Shown piece after piece: positions 8,032 through 59,169 of a stretch of 64,000 nucleotides of DNA. The stretch's first letter is position 1. Each line of letters opens with the position of its first letter. The translations under genes and the position numbers were made by a program. Below the pieces are notes generated by a model, which did not search any database, had not been told where the DNA came from, and saw only the letters and a list, made by a program, of their open reading frames with translations. Source of the DNA: Aestuariivirga sp. (GTDB lineage Bacteria; Pseudomonadota; Alphaproteobacteria; Rhizobiales; Aestuariivirgaceae); NCBI GenBank assembly GCA_030680855.1, contig JAUXUN010000057.1, forward strand, positions 95,539-159,538, written 5' to 3'.

Positions 8032-8100
8032 CAGTTTTACGGGACAGGAATTTTCCAGCGCCGGAATGTCGGCACCGTCGGAGCCGCTTCAAGTACATAG

Positions 8101-8320
8101 GAATTTAATGATTGACAATATAATCCTATCATGCTATTTGTGGCCTGTTCATCCCGGAAAGGTGCTGATCATGACAGTGATCTCGAAGGGGTGGATGGGG
8201 CCTCCGGGCTTGGGAAGTAACGTTCCCTCAATTCCGGGAGCTTCAGGTGGAGATCACCACCGCCGCTGTTTGACATTGTGAAATCTACTCCGGAAGCGGA
8301 GCACCGCTTTCTTCCCGGGC
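8101..8320 (+). repeat. dispersed intergenic repeat, copy 1
   Basis: gaatttaatgattgacaatata...gctgatcatgacagtgatctcgaaggggtggatggggcctccgggcttggg...gctgtttgacattgtgaaatc...ggaagcggagcaccgctttc aligns with the reverse complement of 58861-59077. Confidence 0.9.
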
Positions 8321-8451
8321 GAGGCTTTGCCTGGCACGCGCAGAAAATTGAATCAAATTGAAGTCACCGCAGATGTTTTATTTTGCGCGGCGGCGTGCGT
8401 TGAATTTATATTTTGCTTCCACATTGAGCCACCCCAACCATGGAGCCCGAC

Positions 8452-58848: not shown

Positions 58849-58860
58849 GCACGAGTCTCC

Positions 58861-59077
58861 GGGGATGAAAGCGGCCCTCCGCTTCCCGGGTGGATTTCAC
58901 GATGTCAAACAGCGGCGGCGGGATGTCCCCGCCTGAAGCTTCCGGAGTTGAAGGAACGTTACGCCCCAGCCCCGGAGGCCCCATCCACCCCTTGAGATCA
59001 CTGTCATGATCAGCAACCGTCCGGAATGAACTCGCCATCCTTGCCATAATAGGAATATATTGTCAAGGAATAAATTC
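58861..59077 (-). repeat. dispersed intergenic repeat, copy 2
   Basis: The reverse complement aligns end to end with 8101-8320, with conserved hairpins. Confidence 0.9.
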
Positions 59078-59169
59078 ACGGAACGGTTCGCGGCGGTTCC
59101 GCCGCTCATGAAAAAGTGATGAATAATCCCGGGCACAATTTTGCCGAGGTGTGCTATTATCTCTCAGGC

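Follow-up and report, generated by a model that had tools for sequence, protein, structure and literature searches.

The two related intergenic segments in the window (the whole 64,000-nucleotide stretch of Aestuariivirga sp. DNA that was analysed) are almost certainly short forms, ~190 nt in length, of a family of structured RNAs whose long form measures ~390 nt. The members of this family are very probably structured RNA genes transcribed independently from their own promoter, transcription being inferred, and the long copies likely disperse as a DNA unit. We give the joint reading, a structured RNA gene family that also disperses as a promoter-plus-RNA DNA unit, a probability of roughly 0.8; its dispersal clause is the softer of the two and the route of mobility is inferred. 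The family itself, its fold, the fixed spacing of its promoter, its synteny and its turnover between relatives are computed results.

A whole-genome search with copy 1 (8101-8320, plus strand) found copy 2 (58861-59077, minus strand) at 82% identity over 222 bp (E about 4e-56), together with four more sites that matched only the first ~130 nt of the query. Hairpin 1 reads GGTGG/CCACC in copy 1 and GGCGGG/CCCGCC in copy 2, and hairpin 2 reads GGAAGCGG-AGCA-CCGCTTTC and GGGAAGCGG-AGGG-CCGCTTTC, respectively. Nine short-form copies from five genomes aligned at a mean column identity of 86%. Among these, 98% of the cells in hairpin 1 were paired and 5 of its 7 pairs were doubly changed, with variants such as GGUGG/CCACC, GGCAGGA/UCCUGCC and GGUGAAA/UUUCACC; in hairpin 2, 97% of cells were paired and 3 pairs were doubly changed. 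The window copies contain P1/H1, H2, an H3-like hairpin (hairpin 1) and the 3' hairpins (including hairpin 2), and are without the P4 domain of the long form. In copy 1, H2 corresponds by homology to the long-form H2, a 10-bp stem with strong covariation; in the short form the stem is weaker. Positions are listed in Table 1.

Table 1. Features of the two copies, in window coordinates, with the basis for each.
Feature	Position	Strand	Basis
Copy 1 promoter/operator	8097-8145	+	Sequence; family-wide fixed TTGAC-to-RNA 5' end spacing versus random control
Copy 1 -35 (TTGACA) and -10-like (CTATTT) boxes, 16-nt spacer	8112-8117; 8134-8139	+	Sequence
Copy 1 inverted repeat ATAGGA/TCCTAT	8097-8102/8124-8129	+	Sequence
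Copy 1 predicted transcription start	about 8145-8149	+	Prediction, no transcription data
Copy 1 short-form RNA core	8146-8316	+	Model R1 match; short-form covariation; core conserved versus flanks
Copy 1 P1 helix, CATCC/GGATG	8150-8197 (8150-8154/8193-8197)	+	Family covariation
Copy 1 H1 inside P1, GATCAT/GTGATC	8167-8172/8177-8182	+	Family covariation
Copy 1 H2, ACG conserved in loop; inner stem GGGAA/TTCCC	8204-8238 (stem 8212-8216/8223-8227)	+	
Copy 1 hairpin 1, H3 counterpart	8246-8261 (8246-8250/8257-8261)	+	Short-form covariation
Copy 1 hairpin 2 (GGAAGCGG/CCGCTTTC), counterpart of long-form P5	8292-8311	+	Short-form covariation
Copy 1 3' tail: GGGCGAGGCTTTGCCTGGC hairpin and AAAATTGAATC, common to long-form 3' tails	8317-8352	+	Sequence comparison
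Copy 2 promoter region: TTGACA and TATATTCCTA spacer box	59033-59081 (TTGACA 59066-59061)	-	Sequence; family-wide spacing
Copy 2 short-form RNA core	58860-59033	-	R1 match; syntenic copy in G039
Copy 2 hairpin 1	58917-58933 (58933-58928/58922-58917)	-	Sequence; short-form covariation

The original prediction, made from sequence alone, had claimed two copies homologous over nearly their full length, TTGACA near one end of both, two conserved hairpins with a compensatory change, and a 1-nt indel that argues against constraint at the protein level. All four claims held: the sequences, read directly, and the coordinates of TTGACA confirmed the first two, the nine short forms covary in both hairpins, and the indel (TCGAAGGGG/TCAAGGGG) is real, with the other coding evidence also negative. 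That evidence bears on a rival in which the element is a short protein-coding gene with coincidental hairpins. Some open frames do exist, for example 49 aa in locus L039 and up to 100 aa in L060; against this, close copies are separated by frame-breaking indels, the start codon is lost in some, lengths differ by 1-2 nt and vary modulo 3, open frames are not conserved, and the helices covary. We therefore rejected protein coding, which can be regarded as all but ruled out.

The four partial matches proved to be a longer element: it shares the promoter and both 3' hairpins, has a related 5' region and carries ~200 nt more sequence. By DNA search, this long element has 34 hits in its own genome (85 contigs), many lying at contig ends, where the assembly broke on the repeat, and long forms are present in 15 of 37 congeneric genomes. 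A covariance model, R1, trained on 13 diverse long forms only (5' 134 positions, four helices), recovered both window copies, neither of which was in the training set: copy 1 at 8149-8265 (E=1.1e-8) and copy 2 at 59029-58913 (E=2.6e-7). R1 gave 20 matches in the genome of origin and matches in 31 of the 37 congeners (E up to 0.01; the weakest single matches are uncertain), leaving 6 without any, as well as in 13 of 298 genomes of the order. A refined model matched 23 of the 398 genomes searched in the order (12 of 141 genera), several of them with at least eight copies; in some Hyphomicrobiales (Rhizobiales), a genome carries up to about 20. At a cutoff of 1e-4, the 385 genomes screened from the class yielded nothing beyond the genome of origin, a search that doubles as a negative control of the model. 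The E-values are rough, resting on a short calibration, and many of the genomes are fragmented bins. A coincidence of two copies is rejected by the genome and congener matches.

Two further observations concern the long copies. The genome of origin also holds a second long subtype with a different middle domain (GGCAGTTAGGCAG...; L027 and L028 on contigs 59 and 5, with L030 and L034), which is split across contig ends there; related intact forms occur in G009 and G024 (L069, L059, L060). In L011, L013, L014 and L032, a REP-like palindromic repeat (such as CACTTCATCCTCGCCCCCAATGCAATTGGGGGAGAGG) directly follows the 3' tail of the RNA.

The fold, which we read as maintained by selection, is supported by covariation at several levels. 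In 13 long forms, 96.7% of cells were paired and 14 of 26 pairs were doubly changed, compared with 41-48% paired after the partners were slid. Across 59 members, 92.3% of cells were paired (slid controls, 46-52%), all 26 pairs showed compensatory double changes, and 348 cells were doubly changed versus 109 after shuffling. The structures were derived from the same sequences used for the pair counts, a bias that the slid and shuffled controls remove only in part, and fitting the alignment of 59 members to the model biases it towards the structure. Independent support for the long-range helix P2 comes from a comparison of subfamilies: its strands lie over 130 nt from each other, yet both change in concert (GUGGCG/CGCCAC, GCGGCG/CGCCGC and GGCAGG/CCUGCC). 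RNAalifold, applied to 11 full-length long forms, predicted 80 pairs, 25 of them with double changes, including the long-range P2 and P4. The resulting layout places P1 at the extreme 5' end with H1 inside it; P2 (columns 56-61 with 224-229) encloses H2 (8-10 bp, nearly all pairs covarying, ACG in the loop), P3 and H3 (loop YAYUANGR); a second domain follows, formed by P4 (12 bp) with an inner hairpin, and then the 3' hairpins. One row of the alignment (A4, L043) is 12 nt short in the last hairpin, and no claim uses that stretch. Within the helices we counted 209 G.U pairs versus 32 A.C, an excess that likely points to an RNA of this strand rather than to DNA hairpins or the opposite strand.

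The promoter keeps a fixed distance from the RNA. Of 49 members checked, 28 had TTGAC at -33 to -42 relative to the model start, against 0.9% in the random control; 24 had TTCCTA 20-34 nt upstream of that start, against 0.3%. Other families use a second promoter class, in which TTATCCCC / AACTTATCCCCGC stands at about -41 and a TANNNT-like box lies closer to the start. Adjoining genes occur in either orientation relative to the copies, so that both marks of a stand-alone RNA gene, its own promoter and independence from adjoining genes, are present. Transcription from P1 is likely, although inferred in the absence of expression data; there is no terminator with a U-run, and the 3' end is undefined. 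Upstream of RNA genes (for example window 8097-8129; L198, L200, L205), inverted copies of ATTCCT/AGGAAT flank the -35 box or directly follow it. This repeat is a candidate operator, common to the RNA genes and, in part, to a protein family with an SOS box described below.

These results weigh on a second rival, in which the copies are palindromic DNA repeats of the REP/RIME kind that act at the DNA level, for instance by binding protein or stabilising mRNA 3' ends. In its favour, the copies are intergenic, mosaic and palindromic, and REP-like repeats adjoin some long copies. However, the G.U bias, the promoter at fixed spacing, covariation that is long-range and spans several domains, and an orientation independent of the neighbouring genes all speak against it, and we consider this explanation very unlikely.

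Comparison with relatives revealed both fixed and variable copies. Copy 1 is syntenic in two relatives, where it lies between a DJ-1/PfpI-like gene (Pfam) and a small ORF; two syntenic relatives bear public names, the metagenome-assembled genomes Rhizobiales sp. RBC017 and Hyphomicrobiales MAG-143. In syntenic relatives the core of copy 1 is 86-89% identical, comparable to the adjoining coding sequence (76-92%), and the intergenic flanks are 39-71% identical, and from this difference between core and flank we infer that copy 1 is probably under purifying selection. Copy 2 is syntenic in G039 (contig 25), where it is 90% identical over 493 bp including flank. Both window copies are inherited vertically. 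Some long forms are also syntenic across species, for example upstream of what we take to be a lepA-like gene, named from its start sequence only. Other long forms come and go: one site of this genome (G000) is empty in G009, G039 and G030, where two convergent genes abut, and at two further long-form sites of this genome the element is absent in relatives. Presence/absence at orthologous sites was established for the long form and not for the two window copies; some of the site variation may reflect loss or gene conversion rather than insertion.

One locus links the RNAs to something else. It carries the long RNA form in this genome (L018), another subtype in G009 (L069) and, in G024, a protein gene flanked by the promoter and 3' tail of the RNA element (L142). 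Because a single locus can hold RNA subtypes or a protein gene between the same promoter and tail, promoter, body and tail appear to form an exchangeable unit. Simple copying through the transcript is unlikely because each copy carries its promoter, and DNA-level transposition or recombination is the better inference. The elements end in GAATAAAT...TTGAATC; no clear terminal repeat was found in them, no autonomous copy bearing a transposase was seen, and no target-site duplication was established, the empty-site junctions being too diverged to show one.

The protein at that locus (L142 380-1340, G024 contig 129) belongs to a set of at least 14 paralogous, mostly helical proteins of ~230 aa (L146-L151, L035 and L038 in the genome of origin). 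They had no match in Pfam, NCBIfam or PHROG, were found only within the genus, and gave a predicted structure of low confidence (pLDDT 60). GTTC-N7-GTTC, the alphaproteobacterial LexA/SOS box, lies 35-39 nt upstream of the ATG in 8 of 8 genes checked, and some of the genes have the promoter end of the RNA elements and, in G024 and G039, their 3' tail as well. An obligate partnership of this protein with the RNA was rejected, since the protein is restricted to the genus and the RNA is not.

The wider claims of the original prediction can now be judged. It had proposed a structured-RNA family, possibly with its own promoter, which held through covariation, further copies, recognition by a model not trained on them and a promoter at fixed distance, with transcription inferred. 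The alternative it offered, a miniature mobile element, held only in part: long copies are gained or lost between relatives, while the window copies are inherited vertically, and we saw neither terminal repeats nor a target duplication or transposase. It would have been refuted by only two copies genome-wide without covariation, or by a match to a known catalogued repeat. Neither applies: many more copies exist and covariation is strong, and no catalogued family matched in the Rfam 15 search. Three of the checks it had named, a genome-wide search, a covariance model and a look for empty sites, gave the DNA and model matches listed above for the genome of origin, a model that finds both window copies with covariation counted against slid and shuffled controls, and empty sites for the long form and not for the window copies. 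It understated the extent of the family, the window copies being a shortened form of the ~390-nt RNA.

What maintains the family is left open, and we regard two rivals as nearly balanced, neither of them reaching even odds. One, given slightly more weight, holds that the family is a mobile element, selfish and non-autonomous: a transposase or recombinase acting in trans would recognise its RNA (or its DNA hairpins), much as in guide-RNA elements that lack an ORF, and the fold would be kept only because mobile copies need it. Multiple copies, similarity within a genome and turnover between relatives fit this, as do protein-coding elements with the same promoter end and, in G024/G039, the same 3' tail, one of which occupies an RNA locus in G024. 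Against it, there is no recurring linked ORF, no terminal inverted repeat or target duplication was seen, and copies 1, 2 and the lepA-linked copies are syntenic, copy 1 being constrained, which is not expected of purely selfish relics. The other rival, a little more doubtful, holds that these are regulatory or housekeeping RNA genes that benefit the host, multiplied and homogenised by gene conversion without mobility of their own; the shared ATTCCT box would suggest stress control. It is favoured by the conserved promoter/operator box common to the SOS-box protein family, by purifying selection on a syntenic copy and by diverged subtypes at the same site in sister species (L018/L069). However, the distribution is patchy, with 6 of 37 congeners and most genera lacking a match, and sites are empty in three relatives.

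Under the reading we prefer, a structured RNA gene family dispersing as a DNA unit, RNA polymerase would start at the promoter just upstream (TTGACA and the TATATTCCTA box, itself a possible operator) and the transcript would begin at helix P1. The long form (~390 nt) would then fold into P1/H1, P2 enclosing H2, P3 and H3, a further domain that P4 closes, and a pair of 3' hairpins. Promoter, RNA and tail would move together as one DNA unit and so spread within genomes, partly recently; copying would occur at the DNA level and not through RNA, as inferred from the promoter being carried along. Individual copies, such as both in the window, would have become fixed and been inherited vertically under purifying selection. 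The RNA might act in trans, as a ribonucleoprotein or as a regulatory RNA; this is inferred, and which of the two is unknown. A bolder reading is also possible, though rather improbable, that of an RNA-only mobile unit without a protein of its own, a bacterial counterpart of SINE-like elements. The self-promoted, complex RNA might drive or guide its own dispersal via machinery supplied in trans, and some copies, such as those in the window, might have been domesticated, becoming shorter and fixed as RNA genes of the host.

Few bacterial RNAs are large and built of several domains, and a number of these have proved central as ribozymes, RNA-guided nucleases or RNA assemblies. An RNA of ~390 nt with strong covariation, a promoter, many chromosomal copies and no Rfam entry is a concrete, testable object. 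Recently dispersed long copies occur side by side with fixed, shortened and selected ones, which makes the question of whether selfish RNAs turn into host genes directly testable. Short-read assemblies break at repeats of this kind, and the family may have stayed unannotated for that reason.

The family is likely to be previously uncatalogued, having no Rfam entry. Rfam 15 at the gathering threshold gave 0 matches in the window, and 22 loci across the diversity of the family, searched at E up to 5-10, gave only a flanking tRNA and chance-level matches, with no meaningful score anywhere on the RNA itself. Six-frame ORFs around 64 copies, compared all-against-all, yielded no recurring flanking protein except syntenic neighbours and frames within the RNA; a linked nuclease, transposase or reverse transcriptase was rejected, as none recurs near these 64 copies. 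A group II intron was not supported, with no Rfam intron match (window, 22 loci) and no recurring ORF (64 copies). Possible carriers were considered separately. A phage search gave no match, and a viral-contig carrier was rejected: there were two exact 18-mer matches, but the model found no RNA there. A plasmid carrier was rejected on a single weak match, judged to be chance, and two distant members had no plasmid match. That one match lies on a Microvirga ossetica plasmid (NZ_CP016617; L071 1501-1556): over 56 bp (79%, E=9e-3), the long RNA is similar in its 5' part to the beginning of a gene for a kup-like potassium transporter, a similarity that is probably due to chance. We found no description of the family in the open-access literature; most subscription papers lay outside that search.

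Several known systems invite comparison, but the family lacks the defining features of each. Closest in architecture and in the behaviour of its copies is ORF-less HEARO. HEARO (Rfam RF02033) is the omega RNA of IscB/IsrB elements and, like the present family, is a large structured RNA that occurs many times per genome at scattered sites; it frequently lacks an ORF. Our family differs in having no HEARO match in Rfam and no recurring nuclease ORF, and in carrying the promoter inside its conserved unit. Compared with the large ornate bacterial RNAs GOLLD, ROOL and OLE (PMC12286853), it is smaller, is present in many chromosomal copies and has no Rfam match. The RIME, Sm and AB/C elements of Rhizobium number dozens of intergenic structured repeats of unknown function (PMC2573895) and share with our family both this character and the order of bacteria. 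They are short palindromic repeats, whereas our family consists of RNAs of ~390 nt that have several domains, long-range helices and a promoter of their own (the sequences were not directly compared). Br-REP1 and Br-REP2 of Bradyrhizobium are likewise repetitive intergenic structured elements of the order, but their published consensus, palindromes of 20-40 nt associated with 3'-UTRs (PMC5082802), is unlike the family. Finally, MRSC-65-2, a mobile/repeat sequence candidate, is a covarying motif with dozens of copies per genome that was read as selfish (PMC11109978). It consists of a single long stem, whereas the family described here has no fewer than eight helices, carries a promoter and includes copies that are fixed and inherited vertically.
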